The notes below the pieces were generated by a model that saw only the letters and a program-made list of their open reading frames with translations, did no database searches and was not told the origin of the DNA. DNA of 46,130 nt from a virus, in the IMG/VR virus record IMGVR_UViG_3300033144_004391, positions 1 through 46,130 of that record, one strand, 5' to 3'. Of this stretch, positions 27,091 to 40,058 are shown piece after piece (the first letter of the stretch is position 1; each line of letters opens with the position of its first letter). Both the position numbers and the translations under genes were made by a program.

Positions 27091-28959
27091 CTAGCGATAA
27101 AAAATAGATGTTTCTCGTAAAACTTTTCGTAGTAGTACAAAAAACTGTTCGGCCATATCTTCGATTTTCGATACGACAACATAATTCGCAAAATAATTCT
27201 TGACGTGATCTGTACCCATGCCGACGCCTATTACTGACACACCCGCTTTCTCTACCCTCTCTACTGATCTTTTAAGATGCGAGTCCAATACAGAGCAGGT
27301 CTCTGGAGTTGAAGCCGGTACGCCGTCGCTGAACATAATAATAATAGGCTTCGCCCCTACAGCAGCTTGAGACAACACCCTATGAGCCGCCCATAACAAA
27401 CCTTCACCATCCACATTTTGATCCGCATAATTCATCTTACCCAACGCAACAAAGCGGTCTCTCGATTGGTTATACCCTTCTCTAACCTGCTTAACTACTA
27501 GATGTAGAAGAGGTCGAACACGATCATAGGCACCACCCATAGATTTATGCTTAGAGTAAATATCCCCGCTAAAATAATCCCGTGTCGTAAAACCCAAGCA
27601 TTCATGATCAACATTAATCAAGTCAAGTGTCTGAGACATCGCCGCTGCACATTGAGCGGCCAGATAAATGTTCTTGTAAGCGCCGGTACGAACATACATC
27701 GATGAAGAACAATCAACGAGTAGGCTAACAAAGGCATTAACAACAATCGCAGGGGTACGATTCTTAAAAACCCTATTCGACCCAAACGCAACCTTAAATA
27801 ATGATCGTCCGTCGATCTTACCCTTCTTTTTATGTCTCACAACCTTCCGACCTACCCCTTGGAATTCCATAAGAGTCTTCCGGCGCAAAACAGGCACTGT
27901 TGCCTTAACCGAATGCAGAAACTCTTCCCTGTCTCTCCAACGAACCGAGTTAGAGTCTATGACCCTGACTACGTCTTGATCCGTATCTGCGAGATAAAAG
28001 TCACGCGAAGTAAACTTTTTATCACTAACAATACTCTTGCGAACATCCGCGATAGCAGAATCCTTAAGCAATTTAGCTAACTTACGAAACTCTTTTTTTG
28101 TCGGGTCTGATTCGCTTTCAGAGGGAGCTTTATCCTCCGATGTTGACGACAAGTCTTTATCCTCACTAATTTCGCTTTCATCCGGCTTGCCAGCATCTCC
28201 TTCTGAAGAAGATTTGTCCTTCTCACCTTCAGGCTTTTCGGGGCTTGCAGACGGTTTTTTTCCTTTTTTGCCCTTCTTGGGGGTGTCCTTCTCGCTATTA
28301 GTTCGCACCTTTTTGCAATCTGCGCTTTTCTTTTTGGGCGACTTTGTATCCGACTTAGCCCAATGCGACCAACGTTCTTTTAACTCTTTAGACTTTGTCA
28401 CAACCTCATAAGTCGTGGGCAATCCTTTAAGAGTAGGAATGATGTCATCAATCTCATCGAACAATTCATCAACGTCTTCGCCAACCATACGAAGCACTTT
28501 TGACCGCTCGTGACCGAAGGTAAGAAGGGTTACACCAGCGAGGGCGCGACTTCTCTTCGATTCTTCTGAGCTATCCCTGCTCTCCCTGATGCGATCAATA
28601 GCTCGTCCTCCACTATTAGCTAGATTCTCACCGCAACCGTAGTATTCGTCAGTTATGAGTTTTTCTATCCTGCCATCCTCGACAACATTAATCAAAAGCT
28701 TAAGAAACGGACATTTAATATCTTCAAGAGCTGTAATATCTGTATGCTTAAAGTGTCCTGACTCATGATCACAGTCACCACGAAGATCCTCTAAATCTAT
28801 GGAGCTTAATTCGTCGGGTGTAGGACGAAGATGCATAACCCTGTTTTTTAAGTCAGCATAAGGCGCGTCCTTAGCGTCATAAACAACATGAACGTCCATC
28901 CCAGCCAAACTAGAAGCAGTAACTCCTTGAGCCGACTCAATATACTGTTTAGGTCTCAC
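27091..28959 (-). CDS. VWA-domain protein (CobT/NorD-like), partner of the MoxR-type ATPase
   Basis: The product has 622 residues and starts at GTG 28959, overlapping the ATPase stop (GTGA). The N-terminal part has H65-E-S-G-H69 followed by KHTD and then NVVEDGRIE (E94): an HExxH-plus-Glu arrangement seen in VWA proteins of the CobT type. The middle (about residues 205-290) is low-complexity and highly charged (KKGKKGKKPSASPEKPEGEKD). The C-terminal VWA domain has the metal-binding D-x-S-x-S in LLVDCSSSMY, and IIIMFSDGVPAS. MoxR/VWA pairs act as metal-insertion or protein-remodelling machines; in cobalamin synthesis CobS/CobT load cobalt with CobN. No CobN is seen here, so the target is unknown. 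Confidence 0.85.
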   Translation of the reverse strand: MRPKQYIESAQGVTASSLAGMDVHVVYDAKDAPYADLKNRVMHLRPTPDELSSIDLEDLRGDCDHESGHFKHTDITALEDIKCPFLKLLINVVEDGRIEKLITDEYYGCGENLANSGGRAIDRIRESRDSSEESKRSRALAGVTLLTFGHERSKVLRMVGEDVDELFDEIDDIIPTLKGLPTTYEVVTKSKELKERWSHWAKSDTKSPKKKSADCKKVRTNSEKDTPKKGKKGKKPSASPEKPEGEKDKSSSEGDAGKPDESEISEDKDLSSTSEDKAPSESESDPTKKEFRKLAKLLKDSAIADVRKSIVSDKKFTSRDFYLADTDQDVVRVIDSNSVRWRDREEFLHSVKATVPVLRRKTLMEFQGVGRKVVRHKKKGKIDGRSLFKVAFGSNRVFKNRTPAIVVNAFVSLLVDCSSSMYVRTGAYKNIYLAAQCAAAMSQTLDLINVDHECLGFTTRDYFSGDIYSKHKSMGGAYDRVRPLLHLVVKQVREGYNQSRDRFVALGKMNYADQNVDGEGLLWAAHRVLSQAAVGAKPIIIMFSDGVPASTPETCSVLDSHLKRSVERVEKAGVSVIGVGMGTDHVKNYFANYVVVSKIEDMAEQFFVLLRKVLRETSIFYR

Positions 28960-30236
28960 AATGCCCCCAGTGGGGTTTCGTATTTCCCGCCATATACTCT
29001 TTTAAGTATTTCCTCAAAAGAGCAACGATCCTCCATAGTAGCTCGATTTAACACGGAAAATGTCCATGCGTCTTCCGGTGACATCCCAGCAACTAGGTTT
29101 CTACTTACAGCTAAAGTACGGCGTAAAGAAACAGACATCATGACTTTTTCGCTATCAAGAGCTTTACGCATTAAATCCGCAGTCTTAACAACGTTCTCGG
29201 CATATTTCATGGGCAAGCCAATACGCTTATTAATAATGAGTGACTCCTGGTCTTTGGTGGGGTAACTAACCCGAATAAAACAATTCCATCGATCAAGGAA
29301 AGCTTCATCCTGCAAGGCTCGACCATGGTAAAGACCCATAGAATCACCTCGTCCTTCGGTGTTTTGGGTGCCTGTTACTCGAAAATTGTCGTGGCGATCA
29401 ATAGACCCATCGTACCCTTTTCTAAGGATCTCCATAGAACGACCATCAATGATCCTATAAAGCGCATAACAAGCCTCTGGAGGCACTGCGTCTGCCTCAT
29501 CCAGAAGCAAGCCATAACCTTTCTCAAGGGCAATTGCAGGAGCAGCAGGATTAAATACGGTCTTCATCCCGCCCGACTCAGTATCAACTAGATCTGTCAC
29601 ACCCTCTAGGTCATCCGCTGTTTGAGACGGGTTACAAGAAACTATAAGCAATCTTTGATTTAACTCTTTGAAGAGTTGTTCGACTGCTTCAGATTTGCCC
29701 GCGCCAGCAGGACCGATAAGAAGAACAGACAACCCCGCTTTTACGAACTTTCTAAAGTTATTGAACCAATCAGGATAGAGGAAAAAGTTATCGTCTATCC
29801 CTTCTTTCTCTATCACCATCGAGTCAATCTTGGGTGCGGCACCTTTGATTGTCTGTTTACGTATCTTTCCCATTGAGTCCATATAAAAAACGGACCCTTT
29901 TCGAGCCGAAGCTCTAATAAAAGACGGGTGACAAATAAGAGATTCAGCAGAAAGACCGTCTGCTTGCTCTGTTATATCATCGACGCTAAATACTTCCTCT
30001 TCTCCTTTTAACATCCAATCAACAACGTCATCACACAAGTATTTCTCCACTGTCCTTTTGGAGTTTATCTTTAACGAAGACCCGAAAGAATCACCCATAG
30101 ATGTTGATACTTCATTACTACCAACAAACCTAGATCGAAAAGCATCGACAGCCCCTGAAGCTGACCCTTTCAATTTCTTCTTTGTCACCGCTGGTTTTTT
30201 ATCCCAAGGTTTCTTAGGAATAATTGGTTTCTTCAT
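28956..30236 (-). CDS. MoxR/CobS-type AAA+ ATPase
   Basis: The product has 426 residues. GGGGG lies just before the ATG at 30236. Residues 1-150 are a basic and variable lead; the AAA+ core starts at FFLYPDWFNNFRKFVKAGLSVLLIGPAGAGKS (Walker A), with GYGLLLDEADAVPPEACYALYRIID (Walker B and pore-side helix), RVTGTQN (sensor 1) and a later DRWNCFIRVSYP arginine-finger region. This is the MoxR family, with NTEGRGDSMG after sensor 1. It partners the VWA protein encoded directly downstream with overlap. It has its own CGGTA motif at 30266-30281. Confidence 0.88.
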   Translation of the reverse strand: MKKPIIPKKPWDKKPAVTKKKLKGSASGAVDAFRSRFVGSNEVSTSMGDSFGSSLKINSKRTVEKYLCDDVVDWMLKGEEEVFSVDDITEQADGLSAESLICHPSFIRASARKGSVFYMDSMGKIRKQTIKGAAPKIDSMVIEKEGIDDNFFLYPDWFNNFRKFVKAGLSVLLIGPAGAGKSEAVEQLFKELNQRLLIVSCNPSQTADDLEGVTDLVDTESGGMKTVFNPAAPAIALEKGYGLLLDEADAVPPEACYALYRIIDGRSMEILRKGYDGSIDRHDNFRVTGTQNTEGRGDSMGLYHGRALQDEAFLDRWNCFIRVSYPTKDQESLIINKRIGLPMKYAENVVKTADLMRKALDSEKVMMSVSLRRTLAVSRNLVAGMSPEDAWTFSVLNRATMEDRCSFEEILKRVYGGKYETPLGAL

Positions 30237-30265: not shown

Positions 30266-30281
30266 CTATCTTGTAATACCG
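30266..30281 (-). promoter_or_regulatory. Promoter-like motif, CGGTA family
   Basis: The minus strand reads CGGTATTACAAGATAG. It overlaps the last codons and stop of the primase gene and stands 30 bases before the AAA+ gene. Confidence 0.5.
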
Positions 30282-31318
30282 CCAAGAGGGGTGTTCCAGC
30301 GAACATTTCTAAGAATAATAGACGCCGATTTAATAAGATCCCTGATGGCTTCAATACTTAATGACCCTGGGTCTTCACCAATAGGAGTCTGAACAAGCCT
30401 CAAAGACAATGGTTTCAACGATTTGACAGCTTTACGTGCCATAATACGACCAGCAGCATCACCATCAGCAAATATATAAACTGTCGAAGGACAACTATTT
30501 TTTATAGTCACTACATGTTCTTTTGTTAAACCAGAACCCATACACGCGACTGCGCCGACGTCTCCTCCCATCGCCTGATGAACCATCAAAGCATCGCCTG
30601 GACCCTCGACCAGTATCACAGGCTTGCCCGTCTTAAGTAAATGCCCCCCAAACAAATACTTTGACTTATTAAGACCAGAGTAATTAAACCACTTCGGAGA
30701 CCTATCCCCTGTAATATCCCGACCAGTCATACCAATCAACTTACCGTCATGCCTACGACACGGGAAAACAAGCCTCTCCTTCCTCGGATCGAACCTCAGT
30801 CCCCAATATCTACAAGTATCCTCAGACAACCCCCTATCTATGGTGTATTTAGGCAAATCACTAACAAAGCCTAAGTCATCGAAGACACTCTCCTGTAGAA
30901 TATCCCGCTCATCAGGATCTCTTCTGTTATAAACTGCATTACATCGCTCAACACGTTTTTTCACTCGTAACCGGGCGCGGCCAGTTATTGTTGACCAATC
31001 TTGCTTTTCTTGCTTATTTAACCAACTAAGAAGTTTAACAAACTTATAGTCGGCCTTACGCATCGCTACAGCCTTTTCAATAAGCCTAAGTAACGAACCC
31101 TCAAACCCGCAAGAAATAGAATGACACTTGGCAACCGAAGGACCGGCTTCCTCGATTTTAATAGAACAAGAATTATTATCGTCGTAAGGGTTAGAATGTG
31201 TACTGATAGCTAAGGGGCATGACACTGAGATATGCGGTCCCCTAGACCCACCTATATAATCTCGTGTATATTCAAGACCTAATTCATTACATATTCTCAC
31301 AATCCCTGTAGAGTCCAT
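30266..31318 (-). CDS. DNA primase (zinc-binding plus TOPRIM)
   Basis: The product has 350 residues. The N-terminus carries a CHC2-like zinc-binding module: SCPLAISTHSN, NNSCSIKI and AKCHSISCGFEG. The TOPRIM domain has PVILVEGPGDALMVHQAMGGD with the catalytic Glu, GAVACMGSGLT, and VYIFADGDAAGRIMARKAV with D-x-D. The stretch RLVFPCRRHDGKLIGMTGRDI before it fits the DnaG catalytic core. It makes RNA primers for lagging strands with the helicase encoded just upstream. It is shorter than bacterial DnaG, as usual in phages. Confidence 0.92.
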   Translation of the reverse strand: MDSTGIVRICNELGLEYTRDYIGGSRGPHISVSCPLAISTHSNPYDDNNSCSIKIEEAGPSVAKCHSISCGFEGSLLRLIEKAVAMRKADYKFVKLLSWLNKQEKQDWSTITGRARLRVKKRVERCNAVYNRRDPDERDILQESVFDDLGFVSDLPKYTIDRGLSEDTCRYWGLRFDPRKERLVFPCRRHDGKLIGMTGRDITGDRSPKWFNYSGLNKSKYLFGGHLLKTGKPVILVEGPGDALMVHQAMGGDVGAVACMGSGLTKEHVVTIKNSCPSTVYIFADGDAAGRIMARKAVKSLKPLSLRLVQTPIGEDPGSLSIEAIRDLIKSASIILRNVRWNTPLGGITR

Positions 31319-31328
31319 CTAACTACCC

Positions 31329-32642
31329 TTAAACATCAATCTCTTCCCCGGTCCCTGATAATGATTCAACATCTTCAAAAGATTCAAGCTCGGAAAAGTC
31401 AGCATTAGCCATATTAAATTTGATTCTGAATCCAAAAGGTATCTTGAATTCATTAGCTTTCAGACAAATAATCGTCCTTAAGTCAGACGGCCCATCATCA
31501 TCAGCTCCCCCAAAAACACCAAGAACCACCGAAGACGTATCGAAAATAGCAGACGCATACTTTGCCGCCTCACGAGAAGACGACCTAGACGTTGACTTTG
31601 CTTCCTTCTTAAACTGACTGGTGATAATAACAGGCACATCGCAGCCGACAGCTACTTTACGGAGACCCTCAATAGCCTCCGTCACCCGCTCCCATCTTGC
31701 CTTCCGATGCTCATGGGAATTAAGCAAGTAAACTCCATCAATTACTACCAATCTTGGTTGCAGTTCCTTGCACCGCAACATGATATCCTTGACAGATCGA
31801 ACCTCGTCACCAAAGAAAATAATTTCAGGCCGCATAGAATCTCGGTCTGCATACTTTTCGCAGAATTCTTTTAACTTTTTTTCCTCAATTTCTGTCAGAT
31901 ATCCACTGGTCAACCGTTCGTAATCCAAACCCAATGAAATAGCGGCTATTCGATCAAGTAAAGTCTCGCGAACTGTTTCCAATGAGAAAAATAACACACA
32001 CTCACCCAAGCCCAAACTATTGTCCCAGGAATGAACAGCTTGAACCAATGACAAGTGAGTCTTTCCCACTCCCGTCTTAGCGAGTATCGTTGTAATTTGT
32101 CCTTTTTGGAATCCTTTACTACGCTTATCCCACGAAGGCCAAGGCGAAGACAAACCCACTATTTCACCGGATCTACGGCGATCTTTTACCAAGTCATAAC
32201 GACTTTTAATTAGAGCCATCGTATCAGGATTATTGGTGCGTACCTCCTCGGCACGTCTATCCCTAGCTGTATCCAAGAATAACTCCTGAAGAAGCTCACG
32301 ACTCTTATCAGGGTCTTTCTCGGCTTTAGACGCGATGCCCTCCAAGCCTGAATAAATACTTTCCCGAAGGTGCGTCTTACGTATCGACTCGGCGTATATC
32401 TCAGTGTCACACTCCAAATCCCAATCAGGAACCTCAACATCAATAGCAGTAATTATCTCGTGTCTGTTAGGCATACGGGATTTGCCCAAAAAGCCCATGA
32501 GATAGCTAAAAGTCTTATAGGTATCAGATCCATACTCACCAAGATACTTGGCTTCGATACCTGCGCGAGTAACCTTTGATAACTCGCAGGGACCGCCTTG
32601 CATCATTCCGTGAATAAGCATCCATTCAACTGAAAGACTCAT
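31329..32642 (-). CDS. Replicative DNA helicase (DnaB/SF4)
   Basis: The product has 437 residues. An N-terminal helical domain with little conservation is followed by a RecA-like core: FQKGQITTILAKTGVGKTHLSL (Walker A), ECVLFFSLETVRETLLDRIAA (H1a with catalytic Glu), RLVVIDGVYLL (Walker B), and VPVIITSQFKKEAK (H3, Q). It unwinds DNA at the fork as a hexamer. The ATG overlaps the loader stop by 4 bases, and primase follows 10 bases after its stop. Confidence 0.93.
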   Translation of the reverse strand: MSLSVEWMLIHGMMQGGPCELSKVTRAGIEAKYLGEYGSDTYKTFSYLMGFLGKSRMPNRHEIITAIDVEVPDWDLECDTEIYAESIRKTHLRESIYSGLEGIASKAEKDPDKSRELLQELFLDTARDRRAEEVRTNNPDTMALIKSRYDLVKDRRRSGEIVGLSSPWPSWDKRSKGFQKGQITTILAKTGVGKTHLSLVQAVHSWDNSLGLGECVLFFSLETVRETLLDRIAAISLGLDYERLTSGYLTEIEEKKLKEFCEKYADRDSMRPEIIFFGDEVRSVKDIMLRCKELQPRLVVIDGVYLLNSHEHRKARWERVTEAIEGLRKVAVGCDVPVIITSQFKKEAKSTSRSSSREAAKYASAIFDTSSVVLGVFGGADDDGPSDLRTIICLKANEFKIPFGFRIKFNMANADFSELESFEDVESLSGTGEEIDV

Positions 32643-33292
32643 TCGGCACCGCCTCTCCAGTCAACCTCTGCAACCTGTATAGACCGATAAGCGTGTCTTA
32701 ATATTGTCGATAGATCATCATAATGACTCACTGTCTCGTCGGGACGATTGTTGGTGTTTATGATAGTCATAAGTTGACTATCATAACGATGCCTAATCAA
32801 ATCTTCTGTCGCTTGCTTAATCTTAGCTGACTCATGACTTGTACTATTCTCTCGTTCAACGCCCATCTCGTCTAAGACAACAAGTTGATAGCGCCGAAGG
32901 TCGGCCCAACGATCCTTTTGACTTTCTTCAAAATCAAAAGCAATACGACCAAGATCACGGGCTGACACAAACCGACACCGGCAACCTCTCTTTATAGCCT
33001 CGTAAAGAACAGATACAGACGCGCCCGTCTTACCAGTTCCATACGAACCGAACATAAGAAGACCGTCACCGCGCTTATCCCGCTCAACAAGAGTCTCAAC
33101 AAAAATCATCAGTCCGGCTCGATAGTCAACATTATCTGGCACCTTATCTAAACGACACTGTTGGTATCGTTTAGGAACACCAATGACCCGCATGATCCTC
33201 TGAATCTCTTTATCCTTAACAAACTTGTCAGGATTAGTTTCTACAGGCTGTCTGTAGATCCTACCCCCACCTTTATCTATGTCCCAAGGCAT
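32639..33292 (-). CDS. DnaC-like helicase loader (AAA+)
   Basis: The product has 217 residues. The AAA+ core has GLLMFGSYGTGKTGASVSVLYEAIKRG (Walker A), RRYQLVVLDEMGVE (Walker B), MTIINTNNRPDE (sensor 1) and LSTILRHAYRSIQVAEVDWRG with an Arg finger. This matches DnaC/DnaI loaders that place DnaB at the origin. The ATG follows AAGGAGAGGTT. It lies between initiator and helicase as in many phages. Confidence 0.9.
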   Translation of the reverse strand: MPWDIDKGGGRIYRQPVETNPDKFVKDKEIQRIMRVIGVPKRYQQCRLDKVPDNVDYRAGLMIFVETLVERDKRGDGLLMFGSYGTGKTGASVSVLYEAIKRGCRCRFVSARDLGRIAFDFEESQKDRWADLRRYQLVVLDEMGVERENSTSHESAKIKQATEDLIRHRYDSQLMTIINTNNRPDETVSHYDDLSTILRHAYRSIQVAEVDWRGGAE

Positions 33293-33301
33293 AACCTCTC
33301 C

Positions 33302-34726
33302 TTACTCCTTGAAATCCGGCTTTATCAATTTATCCAAATCGTACTTCTCACGGCAAATCTCATCGAAAGTCTTATAAGTCTTGGGTTTTACATTCTTAAC
33401 AACATGCGAAGAAACCCTTGATGACCCATCCGTAAAACCAGTATCAATCCGCGAAGCCAATACATCCGCCAGACGATACATATGCGAAAGCACCGGATGA
33501 CCTTCCTTCGGCTTTGGAAAAACCTTGTCCTTGATCGTCGAATAGTCAGCAACCAAAACCTGAGCCATCTTTCTCACAACCTCCGGCTTGTAAACCGAAA
33601 CGGTCTGCGCCAGATTCTTAAAATCCTTACCAGTAGGCTGGAGCGGTATAGCCGCATTCGGATATGTCTTTAGTAACTCTTCGTTAAACATCTCGAAAGC
33701 TTCAATAGGAGTCGTCCCTCCCTTTGGTGTTATCCTCTCCTTGCCTACCTTCTTATACCGACGAGAAGATTTCTCTGGCGATGATTTCTTTGAAACCTTC
33801 GGCTTTTTCTCGACATCGAACATAATCCGCTGATTACCATCTTCATCCTGGTCCTTGATAAAGGATTTCCGAAAAGGTAAATCTCTAGCCACCAAATCCG
33901 GTCGCAGGCATTCTTCTGTCTTTTCGGATTCTTCAAAAGGAAAATTTTTGTTTTCATCTCCGGCGAATGAGCGAAGCGAATTCGGCAAAAAAGAATTACG
34001 AAGTAATTCTTTTTCTCTTCTCTTTTCCTCTCTTATTAAATGTGCGGGCGCGTAGCAAGCATCGTTCCCGACTTCTGACACAGGTAATTCCTTGTCTGTA
34101 GAGGAGTCATTTGTTTCGTAGTCACTAAGAGGGACCGCCAGGTTTCTGGCGGGGGGTGCGCCAGGTTTCTGGCGGTTACTCTTTTGGGGGACCGCCAGGT
34201 TTCTGGCGGGGGGTGCGCCAGGTTTCTGGCGGGCATCTGTTTCTTTTTCACCGGAGGAATCTGATTTTTCCGGCAATTTTGATGGGACTTTTGCGATGAT
34301 TTCGCCGGTATTTTTATCAGACCAGATGGCGATGTTTACCTGATCACCATAGACAGCTTCAAGGTCATTAAGAAAGATGACAAGCTTATTGGGATTTTCG
34401 GTATCCTTTGCCCGAACCAATAGCTCCTTCTCTTCAAGCTCAACTAAAGTTTCTCTTACGGTACTTATCCCTCTTTTAAGGAATCGAGCCATTTCTTTTA
34501 TGGTGGTGACGACACGGTTGGCTTTTTGGCTTCGAGCGAGGCAAACGACAAAGCCATAAACCCTTAACTGTCGGTCTGATATATTCGGGTCACACAACAC
34601 ACAATCGTGGATTTTTGTAAAATAACTGCGCCCGTTTTTAAGTTTTTTTGTGGGCGGATTTCGATAGAGAAGAATAAGATCGTTTGAAATAGCGGGTTTG
34701 AGAGAGTCGTGTCTTTGATATACCAT
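33302..34726 (-). CDS. Replication initiator (lambda O / replisome-organiser-like)
   Basis: The product has 474 residues. Residues 25-135 look like a winged helix: FTKIHDCVLCDPNISDRQLRVYGFVVCLARS, TTIKEMARFLKRGISTVRETLVELEEKELLVR, as in phage O-type and RepA-type initiators. Residues about 178-215 repeat a 19-residue unit (QKPGAPPARNLAVPQKSNR) because the DNA there holds four inverted repeats. A charged linker (HLIREEKRREKELLRN) comes from a purine-only stretch. The C-terminal part is helical (TPIEAFEMFNEELLKTYPNA, MAQVLVADYSTIKDKVFP) and probably binds the helicase-loader complex. It heads the replication gene cluster, immediately before the loader. I infer origin binding within its own gene. 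Confidence 0.75.
   Translation of the reverse strand: MVYQRHDSLKPAISNDLILLYRNPPTKKLKNGRSYFTKIHDCVLCDPNISDRQLRVYGFVVCLARSQKANRVVTTIKEMARFLKRGISTVRETLVELEEKELLVRAKDTENPNKLVIFLNDLEAVYGDQVNIAIWSDKNTGEIIAKVPSKLPEKSDSSGEKETDARQKPGAPPARNLAVPQKSNRQKPGAPPARNLAVPLSDYETNDSSTDKELPVSEVGNDACYAPAHLIREEKRREKELLRNSFLPNSLRSFAGDENKNFPFEESEKTEECLRPDLVARDLPFRKSFIKDQDEDGNQRIMFDVEKKPKVSKKSSPEKSSRRYKKVGKERITPKGGTTPIEAFEMFNEELLKTYPNAAIPLQPTGKDFKNLAQTVSVYKPEVVRKMAQVLVADYSTIKDKVFPKPKEGHPVLSHMYRLADVLASRIDTGFTDGSSRVSSHVVKNVKPKTYKTFDEICREKYDLDKLIKPDFKE
34007..34034 (-). other. 28-nt purine-only tract in the initiator gene
   Basis: All 28 bases of the coding strand are A or G here (all pyrimidines on the given strand), 101 bases downstream of the last inverted repeat. 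In the lambda origin an A+T-rich stretch with strong purine bias beside the iterons is where DNA opens. Confidence 0.75.
34135..34232 (-). repeat. Four perfect 16-bp inverted repeats inside the initiator gene (putative origin)
   Basis: CGCCAGGTTTCTGGCG occurs at 34136-34151, 34159-34174, 34193-34208 and 34216-34231. Each is a perfect 6-bp dyad with a 4-base centre. Spacing alternates 23, 34, 23, giving a 57-bp duplicated unit that keeps the reading frame. The arrangement recalls the four dyad iterons of the lambda origin within gene O. Confidence 0.85.
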
Positions 34727-34802: not shown

Positions 34803-34935
34803 GTCTTATTATTAAGGCTTCCTAAAAGTTGGAAATAAACGCTTTTGTCTTATTATTAAGGCTTGCTAAAGTTGTGGAAATAAACGCTTTTGTCTTATTA
34901 TTAAGGCTTCCTAAAAGTTGGAAATAAACGCTTTT
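34803..34935. repeat. Three 44-45 bp direct repeats (iteron-like)
   Basis: Units begin at 34803, 34847 and 34892 with GTCTTATTATTAAGGCTT and end in GGAAATAAACGCTTTT. The first and third are identical; the middle differs in a few central bases. No spacers separate them, so this is not CRISPR. The position just upstream of the initiator gene suits an origin or initiator-binding site. Confidence 0.9.
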
Positions 34936-34994
34936 GTTAAGTATCCGCTGTGAGCTAAAGTTGTAAAGTATCTGCGGTGATACCTTTGATTCAT

Positions 34995-39166: not shown

Positions 39167-39517
39167 CTACTTGATCTTACTGAAGTTATCCTCCATCCAA
39201 TAACCAATTTCACTGTCATTTTCAAAATACCCGACAATGCGAGGGCATTTCTTGTGTGTGAGAACAGTCCCCCACTTTTTCGGTCCCTTCATCTCAGGTC
39301 GATGGTAGGACGACCCTACCTTTTTATTAGGTACCTGAGCGACTCTTCTCGGTTTTGGATTATGCCAAATCTCGTAAAAATCCGGCGCAACCGCGTAAAC
39401 CCTGAATCGACCGCTCGCGAGCCAAAGGCAATCAGGGGGGGTCTCCTCCAGCTTCGCTTTTGGCTTCGCTTTTGGCTTCGCTTTTGGCTTCGCTTTTGGC
39501 TTCGCTTTAGTTGCCAT
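39167..39517 (-). CDS. Unknown protein with Lys-Pro-Lys-Ala repeat tail at the N-terminus
   Basis: The product has 116 residues from the ATG at 39517, overlapping the upstream stop by 11 bases. Residues 3-22 repeat A-K-P-K five times, an unfolded basic tail of the histone H1 kind that would bind DNA. The body contains FRVYAVAPDFYEIWHNPKPRRV and KCPRIVGYFENDSEIGYWMEDNF. The function is unknown; a DNA-binding protein is a reasonable guess. Confidence 0.65.
   Translation of the reverse strand: MATKAKPKAKPKAKPKAKPKAKLEETPPDCLWLASGRFRVYAVAPDFYEIWHNPKPRRVAQVPNKKVGSSYHRPEMKGPKKWGTVLTHKKCPRIVGYFENDSEIGYWMEDNFSKIK
39451..39510 (-). repeat. 12-bp tandem repeat in the 39167 gene
   Basis: GCTTCGCTTTTG (given strand) is repeated four times plus a partial fifth unit, encoding A-K-P-K units. 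Copy number may vary between relatives by slippage. Confidence 0.95.
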
Positions 39518-40058
39518 CTTTAGCCCCCTCAACCGCGCTCCAGGGCAGATTAACACTGATATTAGGAAGCTCTGGTATTACAAGCTCTCGGCGACTTCTA
39601 AAAGTCGAGTCGAGCAATTGATACCTCTTGCTATACTCAGTAAGTCGCTTCCCGTCTTCAGTCTTATCCCAGGCTTTGCCTTGGTTATGCGAATAAACAA
39701 CGATGGACTCTAAGATACTCTTAACACAATCATCGTATGCTTCCATAGCCAAAGATAATTCGTCTTCGGCTACATAACTAGATTTGAGGAAGTGATCAAA
39801 ATGCTTACTCGCACGTTCGACAGCCCCCTCCGCAGATGCAAATTTCTCAAGCTCATCGTATAGGAACAGATTTTCAATAACTGGCAGCTTTTGATCAGAC
39901 TCGGTCTCCAAATCTTTCAATCGCTGACGAGCTTCAAGAACATCTTGTTTAAGTTGAACTAAAGAATTTGCAATCGTTGCCATATAGGAAGAAGAGCCTT
40001 CGATTGCTTCTGTAAGAGAAGCAATTTTTTGCTCTAACTTCTGATGTTCATTTGACAT
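39507..40058 (-). CDS. Unknown coiled-coil protein
   Basis: The product has 183 residues from the ATG at 40058 (AAGGAG seven bases upstream). Residues 5-55 form a coiled coil (EQKIASLTEAIEGSSS, LVQLKQDVLEARQRLKDLETES). More helices follow. There is no motif. A CCTCA/TGAGG hairpin at 40074-40086 lies just ahead of the ribosome site. Two GTCCATCATCG-type elements drive it. Confidence 0.65.
   Translation of the reverse strand: MSNEHQKLEQKIASLTEAIEGSSSYMATIANSLVQLKQDVLEARQRLKDLETESDQKLPVIENLFLYDELEKFASAEGAVERASKHFDHFLKSSYVAEDELSLAMEAYDDCVKSILESIVVYSHNQGKAWDKTEDGKRLTEYSKRYQLLDSTFRSRRELVIPELPNISVNLPWSAVEGAKDGN

Follow-up and report, generated by a model that had tools for sequence, protein, structure and literature searches.

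A stretch of viral DNA of 46,130 nucleotides (IMG/VR record IMGVR_UViG_3300033144_004391; hereafter the window) carries four perfect copies of a 16-bp dyad inside the gene of its putative replication initiator. Judged from sequence comparison and from analogy with characterized phages, these dyads are very probably the sites for the winged-helix domain encoded by the same gene, and together they would constitute the replication origin of the phage. The initiator is lambda-O-like in design and lies outside the PHROG family of lambda O. The window thus appears to be another case of the known "origin embedded in the initiator gene", with a dyad specificity of its own that is shared with one clade of phages, referred to below as the L046 clade.

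Four Exact Dyads Within the Initiator Gene

The sequence CGCCAGGTTTCTGGCG (coding strand, CGCCAGAAACCTGGCG) occurs four times at positions 34136-34231, without a single mismatch. The iterons, all assigned to the minus strand, are located at 34216-34231 (iteron 1), 34193-34208 (iteron 2), 34159-34174 (iteron 3), and 34136-34151 (iteron 4), with start-to-start spacings of 23, 34, and 23 bp. Each dyad is composed of the arms CGCCA and TGGCG around an A-rich centre (CGCCA-gaaacc-TGGCG), and the array contains two identical 45-bp blocks offset by 57 bp. No fifth copy was detected in the whole window with up to three mismatches allowed, and four matches were reached in none of 100 shuffles. These results confirmed the paired 23-34-23 arrangement described in the original prediction, and its placement inside a coding sequence also held, as the ORF at 33302-34726 (minus strand) is open throughout the array, which spans codons 166-197.

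Counted in codons, the four dyads begin at 166, 173, 185, and 192, in frames 0, 2, 0, and 2. Consequently, iterons 1 and 3 are read as RQKPG, while iterons 2 and 4 are read as PARNLA. The reading of one 16-bp word as two different peptides indicates that the DNA, and not the peptide, has been selected. This agrees with the earlier proposal that the 57-bp unit, which keeps the frame and repeats a peptide, reflects a DNA function shaping the protein. The intervals of 23 and 34 bp differ by 11 bp, or about one helical turn, and this difference would fit proteins bound on one face of the helix. Elsewhere in the window, nearly five perfect 12-bp repeats (GCTTCGCTTTTG; 39451-39508) encode a KPKA repeat within the ORF at 39167-39556 (minus strand).

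The Initiator and the Replication Genes

The 474-aa product of the gene at 33302-34726 (minus strand) comprises a winged-helix N-terminus, a linker that holds the dyads, and a helical C-terminal region; an AlphaFold prediction of this protein alone yielded a pLDDT of 36. In a comparison with PHROG, the N-terminus matched phrog_186 (E 4e-6), phrog_270 (1.1e-4), and phrog_1098 (1.6e-4), and the only other family matched by the protein was phrog_428. The N-terminal matches are to families of DnaD-like proteins and initiators of phage replication. The lambda O family, phrog_277, was not matched by the window initiator, while lambda O itself matched it with an E of 1e-152. Among the Pfam matches up to E 1 there was no PF13730, and a RepA_N match was likewise absent from the Pfam results. 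As both phrog_277 and PF13730 are missing, we grouped the window by its embedded origin, and not by protein family.

The initiator gene is followed on the minus strand by genes for a DnaC-like helicase loader (32639-33292; phrog_50, E 8.4e-25; Pfam IstB), a DnaB-like replicative helicase (31329-32642; phrog_19, E 4.7e-36; Pfam DnaB_C), and a DNA primase with a Toprim domain (30266-31318; phrog_47, E 5.6e-50), in this order. Directly after the primase gene, the replication region also holds CobT-like (VWA) and CobS-like (AAA+) genes (27091-30236). Protein searches with the initiator or the loader retrieved nothing beyond one near-identical copy of this phage, and no relative of the initiator was found in 50,697 phage records. 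A near-identical contig of 52,638 bases (3300033155_001652) encodes replication proteins without differences and carries the same four dyads; its length implies that the window probably falls short of the complete genome.

The Same Dyad in the L046 Clade

A relaxed search for two GCCAG-N4-CTGGC dyads returned 24 stretches, which were mostly chance matches. The same design, with C/G-runs and a period of 22-23 bp, was seen at five loci, two of which lay inside another winged-helix gene (PF13730, HTH_36) beside a DnaC-like gene. Relatives were then fetched with the DnaC-like loader of those loci, leaving the dyads unused in the search, and this gave seven loci, six of them distinct (L046, L047, L049, L050, L051, and L052). 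All six carry three iterons in the initiator gene, just after the winged helix, in the form CCCCC-CGCCAG-AAAA-CTGGCG, 22-23 bp apart and more or less degenerate. Frames 0 and 1 are both used to read these iterons, with frame 2 in addition in L051 and L052, and the resulting peptides are RQKTG, PENK, or PAGKLA. The dyad is therefore conserved in relatives, with the same word at the same place in six other phages and in up to three frames. The left half-site and the A-rich centre are kept, but the right arm varies, so that 2-6 of the 6 arm pairs remain; this would be expected of a site bound by protein, not of a paired hairpin.

The initiators of L046 and L050 (also labelled L032 and L038) match PF13730. 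The protein model of L046 shows a winged helix at residues 15-90, a low-confidence linker at 91-135, and then C-terminal helices, and the linker coincides with the iteron-coded stretch. This position in a linker would explain why the coding sequence tolerates the array. A fold search with the L046 model returned generic winged helices; the listed hits included DnaD and the pSK41 RepA N-domain, and none had an E below 0.001. BLASTP found no significant match between the window and L046 initiators, and for this reason we do not claim common descent of the whole protein.

Dyad arrays of the form CGCCAG-N4-CTGGCG with G-runs were also observed between genes (L020, 3102-3140; L036, 3762-3822; L027, 5945-5983), upstream of a conserved phage gene that has no PHROG or Pfam match. 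The L050 and L052 contigs contain both an intergenic and an initiator-embedded array, reminiscent of oriL and oriR of phage SPP1.

Embedded Arrays Across Phage Winged-Helix Initiators

We inspected about 35 phage winged-helix initiators, most of which possess tandem A-centred dyads 20-24 bp apart after the DNA-binding domain. The named phages in this sample are those of Pseudomonas, Lysinibacillus, Oceanospirillum, Lactobacillus, Enterococcus, Acetoanaerobium, Cellulophaga, Bacteroides, Flavonifractor, Fusobacterium, Staphylococcus, Polaribacter, Erysipelothrix, Butyrivibrio, Leuconostoc, and others. On inspection, the dyads are 16-17 bp long with 5-bp arms and an A-rich centre, as represented by c5 (TTAAC-aaaaat-GTTAA), AB1 (TTGAC-gaaaat-GTCAA), HU1 (CTTCG-gaaaaca-CGAAG), fec1340 (TCGGC-aaaaat-GCCGA), and lambda (TCCCT-caaaacg-AGGGA). 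The arrays mostly start at about codons 90-117, and that of the window at codon 166.

Tandem near-repeats 18-27 bp apart were assessed by shuffling codon order (60 shuffles; floor p ≤ 0.016). In the first set, the floor was reached by 17 of 21 initiators, lambda O included, and by none of the 19 adjacent genes for a loader or helicase; Ld3b, which is among the 17, has a low-complexity AAG/AAC run and is not to be counted. The second set gave 12 of 15 initiators versus none of 15 upstream stretches.

An A+T-rich string right after the iterons is often AATAATACAAGTATTAATAATAC, read as NNTSINNT. Similar strings were noted in L066, L071, L072, L074, L078, L079, and others, in phages of Firmicutes and Fusobacterium and, more loosely, of Pseudomonas and Cellulophaga, and they represent a candidate conserved opening element. 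Lactobacillus phage Ld3 (L058, 2480-3629) encodes its HTH_36 initiator as a short ORF of 96 aa that contains no iterons and precedes a separate O-like gene; its relative c5, in contrast, carries an array within a full-length initiator.

Covariation of the Recognition Helix and the Dyad Arms

The comparison indicates that similar helices go with similar arms, even in far-apart phages. Helix similarity correlated with arm identity across 28 phages (Mantel r 0.57, p 0.0002; partial r 0.39, p 0.0002, after removal of the rest-of-domain similarity) and with one phage per clade (23 phages; Mantel 0.51, partial 0.33), values that are to be read in light of the arms having been registered by the author after viewing the arrays and of the relatedness of the sequences. 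The helix KVTVSR accompanies the arms TTAAC (c5, SP120), KET-SRW accompanies TTGAC (B1578, AB1), RS-I/V accompanies GAC (Cellulophaga phi39:1, Leuconostoc LLC-1, Flavonifractor Cormatin), NSRVSEI accompanies TTCG (three Pseudomonas phages), and S-S/T-VR accompanies CGCCA (the window and the L046 clade). The helix closest to that of the window is found in L046, whose arms are identical and which is not the closest over the rest of the domain; this match is to be weighed with the fact that it was the dyads that first led to the L046 clade.

Initiators and their embedded iterons might form one exchangeable origin-specificity cassette, in which the residues at the helix start predict the 5-bp arms across phyla. 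We put this forward tentatively, as an idea slightly likelier to fail than to hold. In the staphylococcal hybrid plasmid pPR9, the RepA_N domain and the origin have been exchanged together, with a PF13730 domain in place of RepA_N (PMC5703833), and this joint swap fits the notion of a domain-plus-iteron cassette. We found no paper stating a family-wide relation between helix and iteron in the open-access literature; the relation across phyla may be new.

Comparison with Known Origins

Lambda O binds every iteron as a dimer and puts stress on a 39-bp A+T-rich tract beside the iterons (PMC6022878). Like the array in the window, the lambda origin lies within the initiator gene (gene O), with four A-centred dyad iterons in the linker-coding part, a helicase-recruiting gene next to it, and a purine-rich A+T tract downstream (PMC6022878, PMC7466680). 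Lambda, as the positive control, and the window both have several dyad iterons after the DNA-binding domain, spaced by about 20-24 bp in lambda and by 23-34-23 bp in the window. The window initiator differs from the lambdoid type in its protein family and in having no A+T-rich region adjoining the last iteron. The arms also differ (TCCCT in lambda, CGCCA in the window), in line with the earlier remark that the two motifs are unrelated. Furthermore, lambda uses the loader P, whereas the window encodes a DnaC-like loader and the phage's own DnaB-like helicase.

The HTH_36 (PF13730) initiators with embedded iterons (L046-L052, Skulduggery, Cormatin, c5, and others) share with the window a winged helix followed by tandem A-centred dyads with a period of 22-24 bp, C-terminal helices, and a loader or helicase gene directly downstream. 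The 16-bp dyads of the window follow the 20-24 bp spacing of this type except for one interval of 34 bp, and its helix points to the correct arms, the best helix match being L046 with identical arms. In contrast to these initiators, that of the window shows no match to PF13730 and has double their length; its dyads number four, are exact, and follow a 23-34-23 split, and no A+T-rich AATAATACAAG-type tract comes directly after them.

In Bacillus phage SPP1, gp38 binds repeats located in the gene that encodes it and acts together with a loader and a helicase of the DnaB type; as in the window, oriL places repeats and an A+T-rich element inside the initiator gene (gene 38), and the gene order is initiator, loader, helicase (PMC6316719). 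SPP1 differs in that its repeats are direct ones and that another origin, oriR, lies at a distance of about 13 kb (PMC6316719), while no second dyad array was detected in the window. In the staphylococcal RepA_N plasmid pSK41 and the pPR9 hybrid, the origin boxes are likewise central in rep and encode a dispensable linker between the winged-helix and C-terminal domains; these are plasmid initiators that contact primase (PMC5703833), and they differ from the window initiator, which has no RepA_N match. The array in the window is best explained, by analogy, as working like lambda ori, SPP1 oriL, and the pSK41 origin.

Candidate Opening Region and Proposed Mechanism

The predicted 28-nt purine-only tract was located on the coding strand (pyrimidine on the plus strand) at 34007-34034, and 101 bp separate it from the closest dyad. 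This run exceeds all others of its kind in the window, was equalled in about 1% of 200 Markov simulations, and is a candidate opening region. The surrounding stretch at 33987-34026 is A+T-rich (77.5% AT, top 1% of the 40-mers of the window), and a computed perfect inverted repeat (33988-34014), also A+T-rich, with 12-nt arms and a 3-nt loop, overlaps the tract. The 45 bp after the last dyad, however, are not A+T-rich (56% AT, 42nd percentile of the gene). The corresponding segment of lambda is 73% AT (98th percentile), and this segment lies at or above the 90th A+T percentile of the gene in 25 of 28 initiators, lambda included, with the window as an exception. The lambda-like layout originally proposed therefore stands for the embedded dyad array, but not for the opening region, which is displaced by about 100 bp and does not adjoin the dyads; this displacement makes the opening step less certain. 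The GC skew of the window shows no origin-marking inflection, and nearly all genes run one way.

In the proposed mechanism, an initiator dimer would bind each 16-bp dyad through the arms CGCCA/TGGCG. The assembled complex would open nearby A+T-rich DNA, most likely at the purine tract, and the C-terminal part of the initiator would recruit the DnaC-like loader and the DnaB-like helicase encoded by the next two genes. The binding of lambda O and SPP1 gp38 to repeats in their own genes is experimentally known (PMC6022878, PMC6316719), and by this analogy the array is most likely the origin. The same-position arrays elsewhere, the reading in several frames, the helix/arm covariation, and the loader, helicase, and primase genes all point to an initiator-embedded origin, as first suggested.

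Alternatively, the dyads could be bound for regulation or for holding DNA, with the true origin elsewhere, for example at three 44-bp direct repeats (34803-34937) upstream of the initiator gene. These repeats (91% matches) are situated 77 bp upstream of the initiator start codon, in one of the most A+T-rich 100-bp stretches of the window, and a second dyad array is intergenic in two relatives. Each repeat, however, contains a promoter-like pair (TTTCCA-16/17-AATAAT, minus strand) that faces the initiator gene, which fits a promoter array; this is the probable assignment, although protein-binding sites were also considered. The repeats are also devoid of any iteron-like dyad, while an embedded array has origin function in lambda and SPP1. 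An origin elsewhere thus seems improbable.

Hairpins in mRNA or single-stranded DNA, acting in translation control, as a terminator, or as a primosome assembly site, would be compatible with the single-strand folding of the array (-37.3 kcal/mol, z -8.7) and with the terminator-like score of one dyad on the antisense strand. Good folding is nevertheless expected of any palindromic binding site, the array has no Rfam match, the spacing of about 23 bp fits protein binding to duplex DNA, and the six related initiators do not preserve the pairing of the arms; we consider a hairpin function very unlikely. Palindromic elements that insert in frame into coding genes are known, and they provide a precedent for a mobile repeat, similar to the Rickettsia palindromic element or REP, that was inserted in frame and duplicated. 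Such an origin of the dyads is scarcely credible here, given that 84,980 bacterial and archaeal genomes contained no paired copies, that the exact search in viral contigs found only 12 other matches, all unrelated, single, and without a neighbouring copy, and that the arrays recur solely at this initiator position or beside one other phage gene. Equally hard to credit is that the repeated peptide (RQKPGAPPARNLAVP), which does arise from the in-frame period of 57 bp, is what matters and the palindrome its by-product: the identical 16 bp occupy different frames within each pair, relatives read the word differently, and the iteron-encoded region is a disordered linker in the L046 model. The mobile-element, RNA-hairpin, and peptide-repeat readings were rejected on this evidence of frame, pairing, and copy distribution.

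Implications

Reading the dyads as initiator-bound origin sites places a probable origin, together with a putative binding site, in an uncultivated phage, and it offers an example of a DNA function shaping a protein linker in all three frames. The wider comparison indicates that, for a large class of phage initiators, A-centred dyad arrays embedded in the gene are the rule. With protein and DNA covarying, both the location of an origin and replication compatibility would become predictable from sequence. If the tentative cassette and its helix/arm code are true, the origin of many uncultivated phages would be readable from the initiator gene alone, as would the phages or satellites that are able to share an origin.
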